In this document: positions 12,523-41,628 of the stretch, one piece after another | How positions within the stretch are numbered: position 1 is the stretch's first letter | Layout of the letters: each line of letters starts with the position of its first letter | NCBI GenBank assembly: GCA_016197225.1 | Contig: JACPWC010000056.1 | Span: 124,001 to 188,000, forward strand | From: Chloroflexota bacterium | GTDB lineage: Bacteria > Chloroflexota > Anaerolineae > Anaerolineales > VGOW01 | Direction of reading: 5' to 3' | DNA: 64,000 nt | Translations under genes and position numbers: made by a program | Notes under the pieces: model-generated | Seen by the model: the letters and a program-made list of their open reading frames with translations, nothing else | The model's database searches: none | Told to the model about the DNA's origin: nothing

Positions 12523-12606
12523 GTCCTCGGTCAGCGAGAAACATCAGTGCTTGCTCGTCTCTGTGATCGTATCCAATCAACTCATTTGAGAGAGGAGGAG
12601 CCTTAT

Positions 12607-15600
12607 ATGACACAACAAATGTCTCGCCGGCAGTTCTTGAAACTGTCCGCCGGGGCGATGGGCGGCGTGGCGGCCAGCGAGATGGCCGGGCTTGGCTTCG
12701 ACGCCACGCGCGTTCATGCCCGAACTCACGCCAGGCAGATCAAGCAGGGCAAAGAAGTGCCAAGCGTTTGCCCCTATTGCGCCGTAGGTTGCGGCCAGAT
12801 CGTCACCGTCGCCGACGGCAAAATCCTGGACATCCAGGGCAATTACGACAGCCCGATCAACGTCGGCACCCTCTGCCCCAAAGGCGCGGCCACCTACCAA
12901 CTCGCCAAGAACGACCACCGCTGGACCAAAGCCAAATATCGCGCTCCCAATTCCGACCACTGGGAGGACATCTCGCTCGAAGAGGCAATGGACAAGATCG
13001 CCCAGAAGTTCAAGGCGACCCGCGATGCCAACTTCATCGAGAAGGCCACAGTGGGCGACAAGGAGAAGACCATCAACCAGGTGCTTGCCATCGCTTCCCT
13101 CGGCGGCGCGACGATTGACGACGAGTGGAACTACCTGCACCAAAAGTTGTTGCGGGCCGCCGGAGTGGTCTCGATTGAAAACCAGGCCCGCATATGACAC
13201 TCTGCCTCTGTCCCCGGTCTGGGGATAACGTTTGGCCGCGGCGCGGCCACCACCTTCGCCCGCGATCTGGCGAACTCCGACGCGATCATGATCATGGGCT
13301 CGAACATGGCAGAGTGCCACCCCGTCGCTTTCCGCTGGGTGATGAAGGCCAAAGAAAAGGGCGCCAAGTTGATGCACGTGGACCCGCGCTTCACCCGCAC
13401 CTCGGCCATGGCCGACATCCACGCCCCCATCCGCGCCGGAACCGACATCGTCTTCCTCGGCGCGCTCATCAACTACGTCATCAACAGTGACAAGTGGAAC
13501 AGCGACCCCTTCTTCAAAGAGTACGTCGTCAACTTCAGCAACGCCGCCACCCTCATCTCCGCCGACTACCAGGACCCCGAAGACATGGACGGCGTGTTCT
13601 CCGGCTTCGACGCCGCGAATCGCCGCTACGACACCAAGTCGTGGGCCTATCAGCGCGAAGACGCCCTGGTGCAACCGACCGGCGAGGAGAAGACTTACGC
13701 CGAGATGATCGCGGCCCGCGTGCCGGGCCGCCCCAAGACTGACCCCACCCTGCAAGACCCGCGCACCGTCTTCCAGATTATGAGCCGGCACTACGCCCGC
13801 TACACTCCGGAGATGGTAGAGAACGTGTGCGGTTGCCCGAAGGAGAAGTTTGTCGAGGTGGCCGAGACTTTGCTGGCGAACTCGGGCCGCGAGCGCACCA
13901 GCGCCATTGCCTACGCCGTCGGCTGGACGCAACACACGGTGGGCGTGCAGTTCATCCGCACTGCCGGCATGTTACAGACGCTTCTCGGCAATGCCGGCCG
14001 CCCCGGCGGCGGCATTTTGGCCCTGCGCGGCCACGCTACCATTCAAGGCTCCACCGACATCCCCACGCTCTATCACTCCTGGGCAGGGTACATCAACGCC
14101 GCCGACGCGCGCAAGAACCACGACACCCTCAAGGATTTCATCCTGACCGAAACAGTGCCGACCGCCTTCTGGTCGAACACACCCAAGTTCGTCGTGAGCA
14201 TGCTCAAGGCCTGGTTCGGCGAGGCGGCCACCCCGGAGAATGACTTCGGCTATAACTACCTGCCGAAGATCACCGGCGACCACTCGCACATCCCCATGTT
14301 CGTCCTGATGAATCAGGGCGGCATCAATGGCTTCATCGCCATCGGGCAGAACCCGGCGGTGGGCGGCCAGAACGCCGAATTCCAACGCCAGGCGCTCGGC
14401 AAGCTGGAATGGATGGTGGTGCGCGATTACTTCGAGACGGAGACCGCCGCCTTCTGGAAACGGCCCGGCGTGGACCCGGCGACCGTTGGCACCGAAGTCT
14501 TCTTCCTGCCCGCCGCCCACGTTGCCGAGGGGCAAGGGACGTTCACTAACACCCAACGCCTCCTGCAACAACACGACAAGGCCGTTGACCCGCCGGAGGA
14601 TGCCCGCACCGATCAATGGTTCACCTTCCATTTGGGCCGCCGCCTCAAGGAGCTTTACCAAGACAGCACCAATCCGCGCGATTGGGCGATCCAAAATCTG
14701 CTGTGGGATTACCTGAATCCCGACGAGAACGCCGCATGGCAGATCAAAGATGAGCCGAGCGCCGACCTGATCATGCGCGAGATCAACGGCTACATCTGGG
14801 CCGACAAGAAACTCGTGCCTGGCTTTGCCGCTCTTCAGGACGATGGCTCAACGGTCTGCGGCTGTTGGATTTACAGCGGTGTTTACCCGGAAGAAGGCCG
14901 GAACCGCGCCGCCGAGCGTGAGGGCGACGACTGGGTCAGCCCCAAGTGGGGCTTCGCCTGGCCGGCCAACCGCCACATCCTCTACAGCCGCGCCTCTGCC
15001 GATGCGGCCGGCAACCCGTGGAGCGACCGCAAGAAGTACACCTACTTCGACCCGGCCAAGGACTCCGGCACGAAAGACGCCAACGGCAATCCCATCATCG
15101 GCGCCTGGGTTAACGCAGGCGGTGATAGCATTGACTTCCCGCTCACCAAGAAGCCCGGGGCCGCCGCGAAAGCCGGAGCCGAAGGTGTGGGCCTGGCGTT
15201 CCACGACGGGGCCAGCCCGGCCCTGATGAAGGCTGATGGCAAGTTCTGGCTGTTTGCGCCGAGCGGCGCGGTGGATGGGCCGATGCCCACCCACTACGAG
15301 CCGTACGAGTCGCCGGTGACAAATCCGGTCTACAAGCAACAGCGCAACCCCGTTGCCAAGATTTGGGAAGTGCCGGGCAACCCCTACCACAACCCCGAAG
15401 ATTCAGCGAAGTATCCGATCATCGTCTCCACCTACCGCCTCACCGAGCACTACCTCTCCGGCACGATGAGCCGCTGGCTGCCCTGGCTGGCCGAGCTCAT
15501 GCCGGAGTTGTTCGTCGAGATGAGCCATGAACTGGCGGACGAGAAGGGCGTGAACAACGGCGACTGGGTCACCGTCGTCACCGCCCGGGGCGAGGTGGAA

Positions 15601-15918
15601 GGCCGGGCGCTGGTGACGCGGCGCATGATGCCGTTTGTCATTGACGGCAAGACCTTTCACGAGATCGGCATCCCCTGGCACTGGGGTTATCAGGGTTTGG
15701 CGAGCGGCGATGTGACCAACGACATCAGCGCGCTGGTGGCCGATCCGAACGTCACCATCCACGAAGGCAAGGTGTTCTCGGGCGATCTCCGGTTGGGCCG
15801 CCGCACTGCGCCCGCGCCGGAACTCTACAAGCAAAATGTTGCCCAATACAAGGGGCCGACGACGACGCTGGCCAGCCTCCAGTGCAACGACTCGCTTGGG
15901 GAGGTGTGCAATGCCTAA
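12607..15918 (+). CDS. fdnG: Formate dehydrogenase catalytic subunit, selenoprotein (TGA = Sec at residue 197)
   Basis: This Mo/W-bis-MGD enzyme oxidises formate to CO2. The frame is 1,103 residues from the ATG at 12607 (ribosome site GAGAGGAGG) if the in-frame TGA at 13195-13197 is read as selenocysteine. The text around it, NQARI-Sec-HSASVPGLGITFGRGA, aligns with the Sec site of the FdnG/FdoG family (NQARV-Sec-H). A hairpin with a GGTCT apical loop follows at 13211-13225. A Tat signal (SRRQFLKLSAG) predicts export. The [4Fe-4S] ligands are Cys55, Cys58, Cys62 and Cys90. Downstream motifs include GSNMAECHPVAFRW and GNAGRPGGGI. The frame overlaps the next subunit by 8 bp. Reading it as two broken genes is wrong because the frame and family text continue across the TGA. 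Confidence 0.95.
13195..13225 (+). promoter_or_regulatory. Selenocysteine codon and bacterial SECIS hairpin
   Basis: The TGA is at 13195-13197. Thirteen bases later come TCCCC (13211-13215), loop GGTCT (13216-13220) and GGGGA (13221-13225). The spacing and the GGUCU loop match the SelB-binding element of E. coli fdhF. Confidence 0.88.
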
Positions 15919-16725: not shown

Positions 16726-17637
16726 ATGCCCGGTGAACTGCAAATCCCTAATTGGGAATGGTGGATCGTCGTCTACTTCTTCGTCGGCGGCATCGCGGGC
16801 GGGGCCTACTTCACCTCGGCCATCATCGAGTTGGTTGGCCGACCCGAAGACCGGCCCATCGCCCGCATGGGCTACTACATCGCCTTCCCCCTCTCGCTGG
16901 TCTCTGCGGTAGCCCTCATTGCCGACCTGGGAAGCCCGGCACGATTTTGGCACATGGTTGTCTATAGCAGGACGTTCCTGCCCATGCCAAAATGGGACTC
17001 GCCGGTCTCGGTCGGCGCGTACGCCCTGCTGTTCTTCGGCGGGTTCAGCTTCCTGTCGTTCCTCGACGCGCTGGTGGAGACGGGCCGCCTGCCCTGGGCA
17101 CCCTTCCGCGAGAAGTATTCCGGTATGCCGCGCATGATCTACTCGATCCTCGGCGGGCTGAACGGATTCTTCCTCGCCTCGTACACCGGCGTCCTGCTGG
17201 CTCATACCCAATTGCCGGCCTGGGCGGACACGCCCCTGCTCGGCGCGCTCTTCGTCGCCTCCGGGGCCTCCACCGGCATGGCCGCCATCGCCCTCGGTCT
17301 GGCGCTAACCCCGCAGGGAGTGGACATAGGCGAGTCGTGGGCGAAGCTCAAGCAGGCCGACAACATGGCGATGATCCTGGAGATCGCCTTGCTGGTTGTG
17401 ATGCTCGTCTGGCTGGGGAGCGCCGCCGCGCCTCTCCTCAGCGGGCTGAACGGCATCCTGCTGATCGGCGGCGCATTGCTGGTCGGGCTGATCGTCCCGC
17501 TAGCGATGCAGTTCCGCGCCGGTTTCCAGGGCGTCAAGGCCAGTGCCAACGTCACGCTAGTGACGTCGCTCCTGATCCTGGTGGGGGGCTTCATCATGCG
17601 GACGGTGATCGTGATGGCCCCGCAAGGGCTGTTGTAG
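16726..17637 (+). CDS. NrfD/PsrC-type membrane subunit of formate dehydrogenase
   Basis: This 303-residue protein has eight to nine hydrophobic helices and the NrfD-family opening (WEWWIVVYFFVGGIAGGAYF). It replaces the cytochrome b subunit (FdnI) of the E. coli enzyme. It should accept electrons from the Fe-S subunit and reduce quinone. It begins 2 bp after the fdnH stop with a strong ribosome site (AAAGGAGG). Its last 37 bp (17600-17636) are duplicated at 17670-17706, outside the gene. Confidence 0.92.
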   Translation: MPGELQIPNWEWWIVVYFFVGGIAGGAYFTSAIIELVGRPEDRPIARMGYYIAFPLSLVSAVALIADLGSPARFWHMVVYSRTFLPMPKWDSPVSVGAYALLFFGGFSFLSFLDALVETGRLPWAPFREKYSGMPRMIYSILGGLNGFFLASYTGVLLAHTQLPAWADTPLLGALFVASGASTGMAAIALGLALTPQGVDIGESWAKLKQADNMAMILEIALLVVMLVWLGSAAAPLLSGLNGILLIGGALLVGLIVPLAMQFRAGFQGVKASANVTLVTSLLILVGGFIMRTVIVMAPQGLL

Positions 17638-17706
17638 AGTGGGCGTCCCGCTTCGCGTCACGCAAAGCGGGACGGTGATCGTGATGGCCCCGCAAGGGCT
17701 GTTGTA
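17600..17706. repeat. Direct duplication of gene 3' end around a palindrome
   Basis: The 37-bp sequence 17600-17636 is repeated exactly at 17670-17706. The intervening 33 bp carries one arm of an inverted repeat, GTCCCGCTT (17645-17653), whose partner AAGCGGGAC ends at 17673 inside the second copy. Confidence 0.9.
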
Positions 17707-17725
17707 ATGAGTGTGCAACGCTGTA

Positions 17726-17763
17726 AAACGTGAGGCGTAATGACGCCATTGCGCCTCACGTTT
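17726..17763 (+). terminator. Terminator hairpin of the formate dehydrogenase genes
   Basis: The arms AAACGTGAGGCG (17726-17737) and CGCCTCACGTTT (17752-17763) are perfect. The T-tract is short, so efficiency is uncertain. Confidence 0.7.
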
Positions 17764-17995
17764 GTGTTGGGATGCCCCAAATTACGGAAAAACCCTTGCC
17801 ATAATTTATCCCCCTGGAGAGTATCAGACAGAATTTTTTTCGCCTTTTGGGACTTTGGCGGTATTTAGACGGAAACGGTTTGCCTTCTAACACGACGGAT
17901 ATTAGACGGAAAATTCCGCTCACTTAATGATTGGGCCGCTCATCGCCGCATCAGCAAGTGTTAGCAAACAAGTTCAGTTGACAAGGAGATAAGCC

Positions 17996-18649
17996 ATGAA
18001 CACTTCACAAAAAGCCGCTGGCATTGGGGCATTGCTTCAAGGGCTATCCTTTGTCATCGTGCTGGTACTTATCTTCGCGGTATTGCCCGGCTTCGGCTTT
18101 CAAGGGCCAAACGACTTTGCCGATCCAGCGAAAGCTTTACCCTTTATCGCCAGCCAGTCGCTGTTGGCATTTCGGTTGTTCGCCGGTGACATTCTCTTCG
18201 CCGTCTTTCTCATCCTGACCGTGATGGGTCTGTATGAGCGATTACAAACTCATTCGCCGGCCCTCGTGCGCCTGGCAACGGCGGCAGGGCTGATCACAAC
18301 GGCGTCCATCCTGGCTAACGGTACAATCGGTAGCAGCCTCTTTCAACTGGCGCGTCTCTATCCCCAAAACCGTGAAGTTGTCGAGACAGCCTTTTTGACG
18401 CTCACCTTGGTCTCATCCAATGGGGCAGGGATTCTCACGGGTGGCATCTTCGCCTATGGTTGGTGGGCGGTGCTGGTCAGTTGGGTCGCCCTGCGGGCAG
18501 GAACATTCCCTAAGGTCTTGAACTACTTGGGGATACTATTTGGCCTGGCGGGTATCGGAGCTATCTTAATACAGCCCTTGGGCTTTCTCGGGGTTTTTGT
18601 CGGATTAGTTTGGTGTCTCTGGTTAGGCGTGGTGCTACTGCGGGCATAA
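17996..18649 (+). CDS. DUF4386-like membrane protein carried on an integron gene cassette
   Basis: This 217-residue protein has about six transmembrane helices (for example GLSFVIVLVLIFAVLPGFGF, LLAFRLFAGDILFAVFLIL, LGILFGLAGIGAILIQP) and resembles DUF4386-type proteins of unknown function. It has a good ribosome site (AAGGAG). An attC site starts 40 bp after its stop, in the orientation expected for a cassette gene. It interrupts an otherwise logical formate dehydrogenase locus. I infer lateral insertion as a single cassette, perhaps from about 17766 (GTTGGGA) to 18810. Confidence 0.8.
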   Translation: MNTSQKAAGIGALLQGLSFVIVLVLIFAVLPGFGFQGPNDFADPAKALPFIASQSLLAFRLFAGDILFAVFLILTVMGLYERLQTHSPALVRLATAAGLITTASILANGTIGSSLFQLARLYPQNREVVETAFLTLTLVSSNGAGILTGGIFAYGWWAVLVSWVALRAGTFPKVLNYLGILFGLAGIGAILIQPLGFLGVFVGLVWCLWLGVVLLRA

Positions 18650-18689
18650 GCTATGGGCATCAACGTTCTCTTTTCGGGCAAAGGGCGCG

Positions 18690-18816
18690 GCCCAACACGG
18701 CATGAACCCGACGCGGCTACCGCCGCGCCCTCGCGGAGTTTCGGGCAGTTCCGGCGGGTCTTCCTCGCGAAGGAGTCGTTAGTTCACCGCCGCGCGGGTG
18801 ATGCGCGCCGTTGGGC
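18690..18816 (+). other. attC: Integron attC recombination site (127 bp)
   Basis: The R'' core GCCCAAC (18690-18696) and R' core GTTGGGC (18810-18816) fit RYYYAAC...GTTRRRY. Inside them GCATGAACCCG (18700-18710) pairs with CGGGTGATGC (18795-18804) and leaves one extra base on the 5' side, the usual L''/L' asymmetry with an extrahelical base. GC-rich arms continue inward. Orientation places the cassette gene at 17996-18649 upstream of it. Confidence 0.85.
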
Positions 18817-18865
18817 GGCTATCTATCTTCATGGTCATGCAAGGATAAGCAGAAGGAGGTCAAGT

Positions 18866-19153
18866 ATGGCTGGTCGTGATGGCAAAGGTGAAAAATTTGT
18901 TCCGAGTTCACGCAAGTATGATCGCACGATAGATGATGCCTTGAAGACGATGGAGCGGCTGGCCGCGTGGTTCGAAACCGCCAAACAGGAAAATGTGTGG
19001 CGGCAGACGGCTGATCCGCTGGAGGCCGCCATGCTTCACGGCATGTTGACGCACCTCCGGCAGGAGATCGATCAACTCATCGCCCTCGGCGGCGACGAGT
19101 TGCAAGAAACCATTAACGCCCTGCGGACGCTGGCGGCGCAGGAGGAAGCCTGA
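18866..19153 (+). CDS. Small helical protein upstream of fdhE
   Basis: The product is 95 residues from the ATG at 18866 (ribosome site GAAGGAGG); the open frame upstream is only the attC. It is charged and mostly helical (TIDDALKTMERLAAWFETAK, LEAAMLHGMLTHLRQEIDQL), with no cysteines and no membrane segment. Its stop overlaps the fdhE start (TGATG), so the two are translationally coupled. This suggests a role in formate dehydrogenase maturation. I do not recognise a family. Confidence 0.75.
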   Translation: MAGRDGKGEKFVPSSRKYDRTIDDALKTMERLAAWFETAKQENVWRQTADPLEAAMLHGMLTHLRQEIDQLIALGGDELQETINALRTLAAQEEA

Positions 19154-20157
19154 TGGCAACGCGCCAGGCTAAAGCCGATCCGCAAACTGAAGCTCTGTTG
19201 AAACGGCTGGATGACCTCGTCGAGCGCTGGCCCGACCTGGCCGAGCCGGCCGCCTTTTATCGGGCGGCCCTGCCCGCCTTGCGGGCGGCGCAAAAAAACA
19301 TCGAGCCGTTCACGCTCGATGCCGAGGCCGCGAAGCGCAAACTTGAATCCGGCCTGCCCTTGCTTGTCGGCGAAGACTTGCCGCTCGACGTTGAAGCGAC
19401 CCGCGACCTCTTTCTGCGCCTGTGCCGCATTGTCGAAAATACCGCCCCGGAAGAAGCCAAAGCCAGCCGCCCCGGCTGGGGCCTCCGCCTGGCGAAACGC
19501 GGCCAACCCGATTCACTCAAGTTGATCGAGCAGGCTCGAAATGGAAACGGGGCCGCCCTACGCGCCGCCGCCGCCGGACAAATCCGCCGCGCCGTCGAAG
19601 GTAAGGGCGGCACGAGTGGCCGCCCCCTACTTGACCTTTCAACGATCTGGGCCGCGCTCGCCCTCGGCGATTGGCGGCGGCTCGAACTCATCGCCACCAG
19701 CCTCAAACTCGACGCCGAGCTACTGCGACTGTTGGCTCAAAACAGCCTCAAGCCTGCCATGCGCGTTTGGGCGCAAGGCCTCAAAAATGTTGATCTGGAT
19801 GACTGGCGGCGCGGCCAATGCCCTCTGTGCGGCAGTCCGCCCCTCCTCACCGAAATTCAGGGCAAAGAGGGCGAGCGCCGCCTGCGCTGTGGCGTGTGCG
19901 GCGCAAGCTGGCACTACCCGCGCTTGCAGTGCGTGCTCTGCAACAACCAAAACTACAAACAACTCGGCTACATCACGGTCGAGGGCGAAGAAGAAAAATA
20001 CAGCCTGCAAACCTGCGACGCCTGCCGGGGCTATCTGAAAGTCGTCGTCACCTACGATCCGATCCCGGTCGCTCAACTTCCGGTGGAAGATTTGGCGACT
20101 CTGCATCTCGACCTGATTGCCGCCGAGCGCGAGTACACCCGCGCACCGGCGCGATAA
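19153..20157 (+). CDS. fdhE: Formate dehydrogenase accessory protein FdhE
   Basis: This 334-residue cytoplasmic protein is needed for activity of the Tat-exported formate dehydrogenase. The rubredoxin-like C-terminal domain carries paired CxxC motifs (CPLCGSPP, RCGVCGASW, CVLCNNQN, TCDACRGYLKVV). The N-terminal half is helical. It is coupled to the 95-residue gene before it. Residues about 150-159 (EGKGGTSGRP) are encoded by a palindrome of the GTAGGGGC...GCCCCTAC type, in frame. Confidence 0.92.
   Translation: MATRQAKADPQTEALLKRLDDLVERWPDLAEPAAFYRAALPALRAAQKNIEPFTLDAEAAKRKLESGLPLLVGEDLPLDVEATRDLFLRLCRIVENTAPEEAKASRPGWGLRLAKRGQPDSLKLIEQARNGNGAALRAAAAGQIRRAVEGKGGTSGRPLLDLSTIWAALALGDWRRLELIATSLKLDAELLRLLAQNSLKPAMRVWAQGLKNVDLDDWRRGQCPLCGSPPLLTEIQGKEGERRLRCGVCGASWHYPRLQCVLCNNQNYKQLGYITVEGEEEKYSLQTCDACRGYLKVVVTYDPIPVAQLPVEDLATLHLDLIAAEREYTRAPAR
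19601..19630. repeat. Palindrome inside fdhE
   Basis: The arms GTAAGGGCGGC (19601-19611) and GCCGCCCCCTAC (19619-19630) are nearly perfect complements and lie in the fdhE frame. Confidence 0.65.
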
Positions 20158-20239: not shown

Positions 20240-21364
20240 ATGAACCTGTTCGGATTCTTGAATCGCTCGCCCGTCGTCACACCTGATCAGGTCATGCTTG
20301 CTCTCGGCAAAGTGCTGGAGCCGGAAGTCAACCGCGATCTGGTTTCGCTGGGCATGGTGAAGAACGTCGCCGCCCGCAACGGCGTGGTTAGCTTCACCGT
20401 CCGCCTGCGTGAGGCGGGCAGTCCTTTGCAAGTGCCCATCGAGCGGCGGGCGCGGCACGCTGTGCTGGCCATCCCCGGCGTGAAAGATGTCAACATCACT
20501 TTTGAAACCGGCCCCCGCTCGCAACTGCGCGACACCTCCAAGCTCAACTTCGGCGCGAAAGCCGTCGTCGCCGTCGCCAGTGGCAAGGGCGGCGTGGGCA
20601 AGTCCACCGTCGCCGTGAATCTTGCGGTGGCGCTGGCGCAAATGGGTCAGCGCGTCGGCCTGTTGGATGGCGACATTCACGGCCCCAACGTGCCACTGAT
20701 GATGGGGATTGCCGACCAGCGCCCCTTTGCCTTCGGCGAACAGATTCTCCCGCCCGCCGCCCACGGGGTCACCGTCATGTCTATGGGCCTCCTGGTTCCG
20801 GCCGAAGCGCCCGTCATCTGGCGCGGGCCGATGATGCACCAGGCCATCCGCCAACTCTTGCGCGACGTGATGTGGGGCGAGCTTGACTACCTGATCGTAG
20901 ACTTGCCGCCCGGCACCGGCGACGTTCAGTTGACGCTCACTCAATCCCTGCCACTGGCCGGGGCGATGTTGGTGACGACGCCTCAGGACGTGGCAATGGC
21001 CGATGTCATCAAAGGCGGAGAAATGTTCCACCAACTCGACGTGCCGGTGTTGGGCTTAATCGAGAACATGAGTTACTATATCTGCCCGCACTGCGGCCAG
21101 CCGGATTACATTTTCGGCGAGGGCGGCGGCGAACAGTTGAGTCAGAGATTGAATACGACTCTACTGGCGAAAGTGCCGCTCGACTCGGCGGTGCGCGCCA
21201 GCGGCGACAGCGGGACGCCGGTGGTGTTGGCCGCGCCCGACTCACGGGCGGGCCAGGCATTCAGCCAGGCGGCGGAGGCCGTCAACACTAAAGTCAAAGC
21301 CCTGCCCCCGCGTGAGATTCCTTATGTGTATATGCCTGATCCCGATCTAAGGATCATCAGTTGA
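20240..21364 (+). CDS. Mrp/NBP35-type Fe-S cluster carrier ATPase
   Basis: The product is 374 residues from the ATG at 20240. An N-terminal MIP18/DUF59 domain covers residues 1 to about 90. A P-loop ATPase follows, with a deviant Walker A (ASGKGGVGKSTVAVNLA), LDGDIHGPN, DYLIVDLPPGTGDVQLTL and the cluster-binding CPHCG loop in the Mrp position. It would assemble or deliver [4Fe-4S] clusters. Its place between fdhE and fdhD suggests supply to the formate dehydrogenase, although Mrp proteins are general carriers. Confidence 0.93.
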   Translation: MNLFGFLNRSPVVTPDQVMLALGKVLEPEVNRDLVSLGMVKNVAARNGVVSFTVRLREAGSPLQVPIERRARHAVLAIPGVKDVNITFETGPRSQLRDTSKLNFGAKAVVAVASGKGGVGKSTVAVNLAVALAQMGQRVGLLDGDIHGPNVPLMMGIADQRPFAFGEQILPPAAHGVTVMSMGLLVPAEAPVIWRGPMMHQAIRQLLRDVMWGELDYLIVDLPPGTGDVQLTLTQSLPLAGAMLVTTPQDVAMADVIKGGEMFHQLDVPVLGLIENMSYYICPHCGQPDYIFGEGGGEQLSQRLNTTLLAKVPLDSAVRASGDSGTPVVLAAPDSRAGQAFSQAAEAVNTKVKALPPREIPYVYMPDPDLRIIS

Positions 21365-21370
21365 TAACCT

Positions 21371-22174
21371 ATGTCTCAAACCAAGACCGACGGTATTCAC
21401 CCTCTCGATTACACCCTCTACGAAAACGGCGCGTGGCAGGCGATGGCCGGGGCCATCACCGAAGAAGCCCTGGTGTGCATTCACCTCAATGGCCGCGAAC
21501 TGGCGACGTTCATGTGCACGCCGCGCGAACCGGACGAACTGGCCCTGGGCTTTCTGCGCGCCGAAGGACTCATCCACAGCCTGGCCGAAGTGCGCGCCCT
21601 GACGATCTCGGAGGACGGCCGGTGCGTGGATGTCTGGCTGGATCACGCTGTTGAACTGCCGGCACGCCGCATCATCACTTCGGGCTGTGGCGGCGGCGTC
21701 ACCTTCGACGACATGCGCGCCCGGCACACCCCGCTCAACACAAACGCGACGGTCACCCCTGAGCAAATCTTCGCCCGGATGCGCGAGTTGTATCAGGCCG
21801 GCGATCTGTACAGCGTCACGCAAGGCATTCACACTTCGGCCCTCAGCGACGGCGAGCGGCTACTGCTGGTGGCCGAAGACGTGGGCCGCCACAACACCAT
21901 TGACCGGCTGTGGGGCAAGGCCCTCAAGCAAAACATCTCCACCGAAGGCAACATCCTGCTGGCAACCGGGCGCATCAGTTCGGAGATGCTGGGCAAGGCG
22001 GCAAAGATGGGCGTCCCCATTGTTGTCTCGCGCACCTCGGCCACCAGCCTCTCGGTAGAATTGGGCCGGGCGTGGAATATCACCGTCGTCGGCTACGCGC
22101 GCCGCAACAGCCTGCGTGTGTACACCGCCCTGCACCGCATCGCCCTCGAAGCCCAAACCGTTGCGCCGGCCTGA
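21371..22174 (+). CDS. fdhD: Formate dehydrogenase sulfurtransferase FdhD
   Basis: This 267-residue enzyme transfers sulfur from IscS to the bis-MGD cofactor, which formate dehydrogenases require. Family motifs are present: TSGCGGGVTFDD, TQGIHTSALSDG, EDVGRHNTIDRLWG, ILLATGRISSEMLGKAAKMG and SRTSATSLSVELG. The catalytic loop reads C-G-G-G where E. coli has C-x-x-C, so only the first cysteine is kept. It starts 6 bp after the mrp stop and closes the accessory operon. Confidence 0.95.
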   Translation: MSQTKTDGIHPLDYTLYENGAWQAMAGAITEEALVCIHLNGRELATFMCTPREPDELALGFLRAEGLIHSLAEVRALTISEDGRCVDVWLDHAVELPARRIITSGCGGGVTFDDMRARHTPLNTNATVTPEQIFARMRELYQAGDLYSVTQGIHTSALSDGERLLLVAEDVGRHNTIDRLWGKALKQNISTEGNILLATGRISSEMLGKAAKMGVPIVVSRTSATSLSVELGRAWNITVVGYARRNSLRVYTALHRIALEAQTVAPA

Positions 22175-39470: not shown

Positions 39471-40415
39471 TTACGTTGCGGGGCGGATCTCGATTGTGGG
39501 TATCTCGATATCTTGTCCGCTCGATTCTCGCATACCAATGTGCGGCAGGCCAAATTTCTCTGCCCCAGTGTTCAAAGCCAGCACTAATAGCCGGATACCC
39601 CAAGTATCGGTCATTCTGTATCGTGACATGAGCTGTAGTGTCAAATCGTAGATGAGTTGGAAAGTCTTGCTTTCGTTCAGTATAGCCGAGTGGAAGGCGA
39701 AGAAGGAAAGTGTCTTAAAGGTAGCATCGGAAAGTCTAGCTTGCTGTTCAGAGCTTGCTCCAAGATCATGGGATGCTCCAATAAACTTTGTGGCAGGCTC
39801 TAATGGCTCATTAGTCCTATAACCGACAGGAACAACGAAGAAAGGAACGCCGAGTGCCTTCTGGTCAATATTGTACTGGTCAAGTTCGACCCATGACTTG
39901 ATCACAGCCATGGCGTTATTAACCCACTGTTGATCGGCCATTTTGTCTGAAGTGAAATCTAATATTGGCCTTCCAAGGGGCACTTCCATACTTTCTGCTG
40001 GCTGGAAGACATCAAACAGATGCTCATCGGAATCAGGAACTAGCGTGAGAGACTTAATCCCAATCTTGGCGGAACATGTCGTTATGCTCAGGGTTTGATA
40101 CACCTGAACTGAATTGGCTTTTTTGTCAATGAGGCATATTAACAAAGGATACTTGTGGCTGAGCAACCATTCCACTGATTTCGAGTCCTCATATCCAATT
40201 TCGCGTTTCTCACTTTTCACCTGCACAAAGTAATAGTTCTGCACATGCAGTCTATGCCCAATCCGGGTGCCGAGCGTACAGTACAAATCGATTCCGGCAT
40301 CCTCGGGATGCGGGACAGGAGTGGAAGTGCCAAACGCCGAGAAGATGTACTGTGCCAAGTATTCAGAGCGAGTACCTTCATGAAAATTGGGGGCGATTGC
40401 TCCAGTTATTGTCAT
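39471..40415 (-). CDS. DUF4365-like protein with PD-(D/E)XK nuclease motif
   Basis: The product is 314 residues from the ATG at 40415. The N-terminal region NFHEGTRSEYLAQYIFSAFG, EDAGIDLYCTL and YYFVQVKSEK gives the E...D...xVK pattern of PD-(D/E)XK nuclease-like folds, as in DUF4365. The remaining 200 residues are unassigned. A GTG at 40559 is in frame, but the 48 extra codons would be encoded by the attC site, so I reject it. Two such proteins in tandem suggest a defence or DNA-processing pair; this is inference. Confidence 0.7.
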   Translation of the reverse strand: MTITGAIAPNFHEGTRSEYLAQYIFSAFGTSTPVPHPEDAGIDLYCTLGTRIGHRLHVQNYYFVQVKSEKREIGYEDSKSVEWLLSHKYPLLICLIDKKANSVQVYQTLSITTCSAKIGIKSLTLVPDSDEHLFDVFQPAESMEVPLGRPILDFTSDKMADQQWVNNAMAVIKSWVELDQYNIDQKALGVPFFVVPVGYRTNEPLEPATKFIGASHDLGASSEQQARLSDATFKTLSFFAFHSAILNESKTFQLIYDLTLQLMSRYRMTDTWGIRLLVLALNTGAEKFGLPHIGMRESSGQDIEIPTIEIRPAT

Positions 40416-40461
40416 CGTGTCACACTTGAATTGATACTGACCCGCCGAATTAAGTCTGCGC

Positions 40462-40531
40462 GCCCAACGGGTACACATCAGCCGTTTGCGGAGCGCCAGC
40501 GGAGCAAATCGGCTCCATGCGGTTGTTGGGC
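40462..40531 (-). other. attC: Integron attC recombination site (70 bp)
   Basis: On the minus strand the site opens with GCCCAAC (40531-40525) and closes with GTTGGGC (40468-40462). Inside, GCATGGAGCCG pairs with CGGCTGATGTG and leaves an extra base on the 5' side. A further stem (ATTTGC / GCAAA) continues inward. The layout gene (40559-41389), attC, next gene is that of a cassette array. Confidence 0.8.
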
Positions 40532-40558
40532 CGCAATCTGGTATGCTCGACAAATCCA

Positions 40559-41389
40559 CTACGCATCTCCTGAAACCTGTAGTCGGAGTTTAGTGAATTT
40601 CAATGGCGGGTTGAAGTTGAAATACGGATCCAAGTAGTAACGCATGGATGCATCGATCCCTTGAGCTTGAACGACCAAGCCGTTGGTGTTGAACATTATG
40701 ACTTTCAAGAGGTGATGTAAAAGCACTGAAAACGCATACCCTTCGTCGTGTAAGAAAAACCTTGTTGAACCATCATCATTACCGAAATCCATTAAGCCGT
40801 CATTTTGTAATAGACATAGTCCAGGTTGGTATATCAGATGCGGTGCATTGTCCCAACCAACCTGATTACCAGCATTGCGGAAGTGCTCAAGAAACACATT
40901 CGTGTCCTTCCAGCCAGCATACCCAACAACGTACGCCCTTATGCTACTCAGTTTTTGAAGTTTTCTCACCTCAGCATCAGTGCCATTGACTATCCCGGCT
41001 CCTTTCTGAAGCAATAATACCTTCTGAGAACTTCTAAATGCCGAGAATAAGCTTATTGGTTCACCAGTTGAGAGATTCGACTTCACTTCAATGACGGCGA
41101 TAACCCCTTCAGCCAAATAGGTGTTGACCGGCGTCAAGCTGGTGATAACAGGGAAATCCCCGCGATAGATGATCACGTCTTGTTGACCTGACCTTTGCCC
41201 TCGGCCATCGATGATCTCTCCGCTTCCTATAACTATGTTCTTTGGAAGAAAGCTTGATAAAACATCCTTCACGAAGTGCTCCCGCGCAAACCCTAAATCC
41301 GTTGATTGCTGTAGCGCTTCCCTCGAGTAGGAATACCACTCGCTCATCAATCGTTCGATAGCTCCGGCATAGCTCAGGAAATTGAACAT
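40559..41389 (-). CDS. DUF6602-like protein with PD-(D/E)XK-type motif, cassette gene
   Basis: This 276-residue protein has SGQQDVIIYRGDFPV, then VIAVIEVKSNLSTGE, the D...ExK spacing of restriction-endonuclease-like folds, with an N-terminal helical region (REHFVKDVLSSFLPKNIVIGSG). This matches DUF6602-type proteins that occur near restriction and defence genes. It ends 28 bp before an attC site in the expected orientation. Its codons are visibly more AT-rich than those of neighbouring core genes, which supports recent acquisition. The exact target is unknown. Confidence 0.72.
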   Translation of the reverse strand: MFNFLSYAGAIERLMSEWYSYSREALQQSTDLGFAREHFVKDVLSSFLPKNIVIGSGEIIDGRGQRSGQQDVIIYRGDFPVITSLTPVNTYLAEGVIAVIEVKSNLSTGEPISLFSAFRSSQKVLLLQKGAGIVNGTDAEVRKLQKLSSIRAYVVGYAGWKDTNVFLEHFRNAGNQVGWDNAPHLIYQPGLCLLQNDGLMDFGNDDGSTRFFLHDEGYAFSVLLHHLLKVIMFNTNGLVVQAQGIDASMRYYLDPYFNFNPPLKFTKLRLQVSGDA

Positions 41390-41628
41390 AGCTCAACCTG
41401 TGAGTTGAAAGTAATGAACTGCGGGCCAACTCTATTTTAAACCGCACCGCCCTTAAAAGTGTTATGACCGGTGCGCCCGTAAATTTTTATGGCCGCTGCG
41501 GCATGAAAAACCTATGTGCCGCAAACAGCCAATCATGGCTAAAGTGTACGCCACTCCTGTTTCCTGTCAACAACAGCGATTGCCTGGAATGCCGTGTGCG
41601 CGCAAAGATTGATACTGTTGGCGAAATC

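Follow-up and report, generated by a model that had tools for sequence, protein, structure and literature searches.

The stretch of DNA analysed here, called the window, is 64 kb long (G000:C56:124001-188000) and lies on a contig of 192 kb (C56) in a genome of 4.8 Mb and 126 contigs that is 98% complete with 0.8% contamination. It holds a formate dehydrogenase (fdh) operon in the order fdnG-fdnH-nrfD, an insertion, a gene for a 95-aa protein, fdhE, mrp and fdhD. From nrfD onward the features are as follows, with positions counted in the window:

16726-17637, plus strand: nrfD-like membrane subunit, the last gene before the insertion (TIGR03148, 52.1 bits, below cut-off)
17600-17636 and 17670-17706, plus strand: exact direct repeat of 37 bp of the nrfD 3' end, including the stop codon, copies 70 bp apart; left margin of the inserted stretch
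17726-17763, no strand assigned: inverted repeat of 17 bp (AAACGTGAGGCG.../...CGCCTCACGTTT), a possible transcription stop or margin hairpin
17784-17936, plus strand: attI-like site; scored core 17901-17936 (ATTAGACGGAAAATTCCGCTCACTTAATGA followed by TTGGGC), putative crossover between 17930 and 17931
17931-18810, plus strand: putative mobile gene cassette, running from TTGGGC to G; its TTGGGC matches R'' exactly, and its start coincides with the attI match
17996-18649, plus strand: cassette gene, DUF4386 membrane protein of 217 aa (PF14329, 51.1 bits, cut-off 27.6)
18690-18816, plus strand: attC of 127 bp, found with a covariance model; R'' 18690-18696, L'' 18700-18710, L' 18795-18804, R' 18810-18816
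18866-19153, plus strand: conserved 95-aa operon gene, the first after the insertion, recognised by its orthologues
19153-20157, plus strand: fdhE (Pfam FdhE_C and FdhE_central, above cut-off)
20240-21364, plus strand: mrp/apbC (ApbC NF008669, 324 bits, just below cut-off)
21371-22174, plus strand: fdhD (TIGR00129, above cut-off)

The preliminary description of this DNA held that a cassette splits fdnGH-nrfD from fdhE-mrp-fdhD, and this arrangement was recovered: nrfD stops at 17637, and the 95-aa gene and fdhE-mrp-fdhD follow on the far side of the insertion. An uninterrupted orthologous locus, for which it had suggested a search, is present in G931, a genome of the same class, where nrfD and the next gene are 46 bp apart compared with 1,229 bp in the window. 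The syntenic nrfD orthologues in G931 and Anaerolineales bacterium H5_CFX7 are 63-72% identical, and orthologues of the 95-aa gene (58-73% identical) lie directly before or near fdhE in G931, H5_CFX7, G879 and G810. In H5_CFX7 the same gap is filled by an unrelated 241-aa ORF with no attC, and at two more distant loci what lies upstream of the 95-aa gene and fdhE is other DNA or a contig end. DUF4386 and attC were absent from all other syntenic loci examined. Conservation of the DUF4386-like gene at this place, which the preliminary description had named as evidence against a cassette, was thus not found, and the idea that DUF4386 is a conserved gene of the operon was rejected on the same ground. 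Judged from the compared loci, the cassette is a genuine insertion that interrupts the operon. About 290 bp of AT-rich DNA to the left of the crossover is also missing from G931.

No other sampled genome of the order was found to have the fdh operon, which may therefore be horizontally acquired; for the same reason, the insertion may predate the transfer and may have taken place in another host. Within the operon, fdnG (12547-15918) appears as two ORFs of 216 and 876 aa with the break right after ...NQARI, a pattern consistent with an in-frame selenocysteine TGA like that of FDH-N. A GC-rich hairpin lies between the two copies of the 37-bp nrfD duplication.

DUF4386 is a predicted membrane protein family. 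The cassette gene has a G+C content of 0.546 compared with 0.63 in the flanking operon, and its product had no match in the defence library. Its nearest homologues in the order are 29-37% identical, and none of them adjoins an attC apart from one weak match; among plasmid records the only relatives were 34% matches in Haladaptatus. Because no sigma-70-type promoter was found at 17500-19000 and the gene is co-directional with the operon, it is probably expressed by read-through.

The attC sites of the window

The core sites of the 127-bp sequence, R'' GCCCAAC and R' GTTGGGC, are complementary and fit RYYYAAC and GTTRRRY. The inner boxes are L'' GCATGAACCCG and L' CGGGTGATGC, with an extra base on the L'' side, and the site begins 40 bp past the DUF4386 stop codon on the same strand. 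In these respects, the attC marks and the correctly oriented DUF4386-like gene 40 bp before them, the preliminary description was confirmed. A covariance model with 18 pairs was trained on 12 attCs taken from arrays that have an integrase, in the host and related genomes, and the sites of the window were left out; in some training attCs the spacers or loops were shortened so that their lengths agreed, and 12 of 22 pairs in the training alignment showed a compensatory change. The search of both strands that had been proposed gave 58.2 bits for 18690-18816 on the plus strand, with an E-value of 1.8e-12 in the 64-kb window that is rough, like all those of this model, owing to shortened calibration. 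The opposite strand reached only 7.7 bits, an asymmetry expected of attC.

Exactly two matches were found in the whole window, the second being 40531-40462 on the minus strand. The best scores in two negative controls were 15.4 bits in 127 kb of loci from the phylum and 19.8 bits in 1.17 Mb of the host's own genome. In addition, the R''-L'' part of the first site has 23 of 24 bases in common with the first attC of a cluster on another contig, C103. It could be argued that the sequence is a chance palindrome or a transcription terminator behind an ordinary DUF4386 gene, since most DUF4386 homologues in the order have no adjoining attC and the single-strand folding energy is usual for the composition: outer and inner arms pair on both strands, with z of -1.48 and -1.30. 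Folding energy was for that reason not relied on as evidence. We regard this explanation as extremely improbable in view of the held-out score of 58.2 bits, where more than 1 Mb of background stayed below 20 bits, the strand asymmetry, the agreement with the C103 site, the lack of the DUF4386 gene in syntenic loci and the existence of a cassette-free orthologous locus. On its sequence, 18690-18816 is a genuine attC.

The second attC belongs to another unit on the opposite strand, composed of the following features:

41424-41459, minus strand: second attI-like site (CTTTTAAGGGCGGTGCGGTTTAAAATAGAG followed by TTGGCC), putative crossover between 41430 and 41429
40559-41389, minus strand: cassette gene, DUF6602, a PD-(D/E)xK / NucC-like nuclease (PF20247, 71.2 bits; PADLOC PD_DExK 85.9 bits, NucC 38.3 bits)
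40531-40462, minus strand: second attC (held-out covariance model, 45.2 bits, E 3.5e-9)
39471-40412, minus strand: DUF4365-like gene that follows the second attC immediately (PF14280, 19.3 bits, below cut-off)

No attC was detected downstream of the DUF4365-like gene, which is probably the next cassette of this unit. The unit as a whole (39471-41459, minus strand) looks like a defence-type cassette. The words "single" and "lone", which the preliminary description applied to the first cassette, therefore do not hold, given a second attI-cassette-attC unit in the same window and two integrase-bearing integrons in the genome.

The left junction and its likeness to attI

The left end of the cassette was originally placed at 17766, where GTTGGGA stands 230 bp before the ATG. 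We replaced it by 17931, which is more likely on sequence grounds: the junction here falls between A and TTGGGC, the TTGGGC at 17931-17936 is exactly complementary to R'' and stands 65 bp 5' of the ATG, as at other cassette starts here, and the position coincides with an attI match. The sequence before TTGGGC (CGGAAAATTCCG...TAATGA) resembles the attI sites of the host.

This likeness was scored with a 36-bp profile derived by iteration from the stretches between intI and the first cassette at 32 loci. The final profile rests on a cleaned set of 16 integrase-adjacent sites, with nothing from the window, and these are sites recognised by position and sequence rather than by experiment. The TTRGGC with which the profile ends is a feature that every cassette start has. 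Over both strands of the window, 17930 ranked first among 127,930 positions with 25.6 bits, 41430 on the minus strand ranked second with 21.6 bits, and the third position scored 11.8 bits. The two leading positions coincide exactly with the left ends of both window cassettes and are set off from the third by about 10 bits. When sites from the own genome and its nearest relatives were left out of the profile, 41430 came first (23.5 bits) and 17930 second (16.6 bits), followed by a position at 10.9 bits. With the left 30 bp scored alone, 17930 held rank 2 and 41430 rank 4; after removal of the own-genome and nearest sites, the same 30 bp placed 41430 at rank 1 and 17930 at rank 47. Under the full profile the integrase-linked attI sites of the host itself scored 28.2 and 24.4 bits, so the left junction of the window cassette scores like a true attI, and the proposal that it is a secondary site was not supported. 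In 1.43 Mb of the own genome, more than 21 bits were reached only by these two attI sites (on contigs C15 and C55), the two window sites and one further place.

The flank points the same way in composition: the GC content is 0.46 on the attI side of the cassette and 0.47 in the host's own attI leaders, and ACGGAAA occurs at 17784, 17869 and 17906, which are 3 of its 7 occurrences in the 64-kb window. An alignment of 17707-17940 to the C15 and C55 leaders was only marginal, and when 201 relatives were searched for the first unit's leader, only 21-bp chance matches turned up. Taken together, the sequence features suggest that the 17930 site is likely to be an attI. Another attI-like site, with 25.7 bits followed by TTGGGC, is present at C56:35915 on the minus strand (locus L226 15915); no attC was found behind it, and it is possibly an empty docking site or a chance match.

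An alternative is that a host integrase placed a circular cassette into an attI-resembling chromosomal site (attG) between nrfD and fdhE, and that there was never an integron at this place. Insertions at single recombination sites have been documented (PMC2426708), and attG sites are described as genomic targets of cassettes (cited in PMC12901181). Two intact IntI are available in the genome, and no remnant of intI was detected at the locus. A chance attI-like site is also conceivable, as a few other, unrelated genomic places in the 1.43 Mb reach 18-26 bits. However, in its likeness to attI the 17930 site is on a par with the host's real attI sites, and R' is complete in the window, with TTGGGC after the crossover, which would be rare for a random target, although the searches favour intact R' boxes. 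The AT-rich stretch of roughly 290 bp that precedes the crossover and is missing from the uninterrupted relative also speaks against such an event. An integron remnant is favoured over an off-target insertion because of the low GC content, the ACGGAAA repeats and this extra DNA on the attI side that is not in G931. We consider the off-target explanation somewhat unlikely.

Integrases, arrays and dispersed attC sites of the host

The preliminary description reported no integrase in the window, and this proved correct. Two full-length IntI genes are encoded elsewhere in the genome, at C15:31482-32423 on the minus strand (493.7 bits) and C55:3054-3995 on the plus strand (491.0 bits), compared with the family cut-off of 265 bits for TIGR02249. 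No trace of intI was detected near 17.9 kb or 41.4 kb, and there was no IntI match beyond chance in the window. A motif scan found attC-like sites adjoining both IntI genes; the C15 array has at least 8 attCs, the C55 array has 2 and lies at the contig end, and a contig of 5.3 kb, C28, has 3 more. Contamination or mis-assembly was considered and rejected, as C56 is 192 kb long and the tetranucleotide profiles of C15 and C55 match that of C56 (0.96-0.97). The first cassette of the C55 array also carries a DUF4386 gene; the possibility that the window cassette is a recent copy of it was rejected, there being no similarity detectable by BLASTP.

The two integrases are 88% identical to each other and 84-87% identical to the IntI of one genome of the same genus. 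They resemble the IntI4 family (PDB 2a3v) in that both exceed the TIGR02249 cut-off and the C15 enzyme aligns with IntI4 over its full length (332 bits); they differ from it in forming, by sequence comparison, a local lineage. Among 301 genomes sampled from the order, 106 (35%) have an IntI match at E <= 1e-60, and 103 of these matches are above the family cut-off. Chloroflexota had been described as not a classic host of integrons, which holds only in part: Chloroflexi appear with intI in a list as early as 2008 (PMC2426708), and the phylum is among those in a 2021 list (PMC8618304). Its role as an integron host is hence not new, whereas the frequency of IntI in this order is notable. Among the better genomes of the same sample, IntI is found in 46%; several sampled genomes have two to four copies, and some copies have in-frame stops.

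Further attCs lie outside the integrase-bearing arrays. A third candidate unit on contig C16 (C16:55577-57197; locus L254 15577-17197) has an attI-like site of 18.7 bits that is followed after 95 bp by a GTPase-like ORF; 1.47 kb downstream lies an attC that is decayed and reaches 19.8 bits. The leaders of this unit and of the second window unit agree over 32 bp at 97%, and also in GGCGGTGYGGYTKAAAATAGAG beside the crossover; a whole-genome search for further copies of this leader found no other place. A leader common to these two units argues for a common origin over two random target sites, and independent targets of off-target insertion would not be expected to have it in common.

Two attCs without a recognisable attI form the cluster on C103, between mfd and lon (locus L017 7995-10680). 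The genes of the cluster are a SLATT-type 2TM gene, a membrane gene and an alpha/beta hydrolase gene, lying between lon and an AlkZ-like gene near mfd. Since integrase-less clusters of this kind exist in the same genome, the window unit might be a fragment of an ordinary cassette array (a CALIN remnant) that was relocated by rearrangement and lost its neighbours, its attI likeness being coincidental; the complete R' followed by a GGCT start, like the cassette starts of the C15 array, would agree with this. Such an origin is nevertheless very unlikely, because the attI match falls exactly at the left end of both window cassettes, and the space between the attC and the next operon gene is only about 50 bp and shows no sign of another cassette.

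On C42 a single attC (C42:16324-16389, minus strand; locus L183 10325-10390) occupies the extreme end of a PAS/GAF/HD-type ORF of 1054 aa, and its R' is cut right after G (CCG/TTCTCAAG). This is the pattern expected, from the sequence, of an insertion at a random secondary site, and as the signature of such an event it lends some plausibility to off-target insertion in this host. Because intact R' boxes are favoured by the attC searches, there may be more insertions of the C42 type than were counted. It seems that cassettes outside arrays have met with more than one fate in this genome.

Nature of the unit and relation to known integron forms

We suggest, at slightly better than even likelihood, that 17784-18816 is a small integrase-less integron, composed of an attI-type site, the DUF4386 cassette and attC, on which a host IntI could work in trans. 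The unit would be lodged between nrfD and the fdhE-side genes with the cassette oriented as the operon, and the bottom strand of attC would fold into an R/L-box hairpin recognised by IntI. One or the other of the two IntI encoded elsewhere would act in trans to insert or excise the cassette, and in an empty site TTGGGCGGCTATC would follow immediately on the left half, which ends at 17930. The attI piece may have arrived with an integron whose intI is now gone, and the DUF4386 gene would be transcribed with the operon by read-through. The lack of an intI remnant argues against a lost-intI origin.

In the usual description of an integron, intI, attI and the array stand together on one platform, and cassettes elsewhere are usually treated as debris or rare off-target events. 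At the window locus no intI stands beside the putative attI, which was recognised by the sequence-derived profile and lies at the cassette start. The cassette itself has a single co-directional ORF before attC and a core site at the other end. In having an attI-like site and then a cassette with attC in canonical orientation, the locus is like a sedentary chromosomal integron; unlike one, it lacks intI, holds one cassette only and lies inside a metabolic operon.

A CALIN, as IntegronFinder defines it, is a cluster of attC sites lacking an integron integrase. The locus is like one in that its cassette bears an attC and has no intI close by, while IntI is encoded elsewhere in the genome. CALINs by default need two attCs (PMC9024848), at least 2 within 4 kb, whereas the window locus has one, together with an attI-like site, which CALINs need not have. 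With a single cassette at a secondary or attG site it has in common that one cassette lies outside any array and was probably placed by an integrase in trans; its left junction is attI-like with R' intact, unlike that on C42. The locus would work like an integron and consists of integron parts, and we regard it as a new variant: an attI-cassette-attC unit that lacks an integrase of its own while the genome encodes IntI on other contigs. At least two such units are present here.

If several such units are indeed what they appear to be, cassettes would be parked beside host metabolic or defence genes and yet still be movable, and integron biology would be extended in a phylum whose integrons, although known, have received little study. 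A further, unlikely possibility is a distributed integron, in which the two IntI are shared and act in trans on orphan attI sites (17.9 kb and 41.4 kb in the window, and C16). Each docking site would then hold its own cassette, and delivery would be into host operons and not into one array.

Elsewhere in the window, 47647-47735 matches a c-di-GMP-I riboswitch (Rfam RF01051, 79.6 bits).
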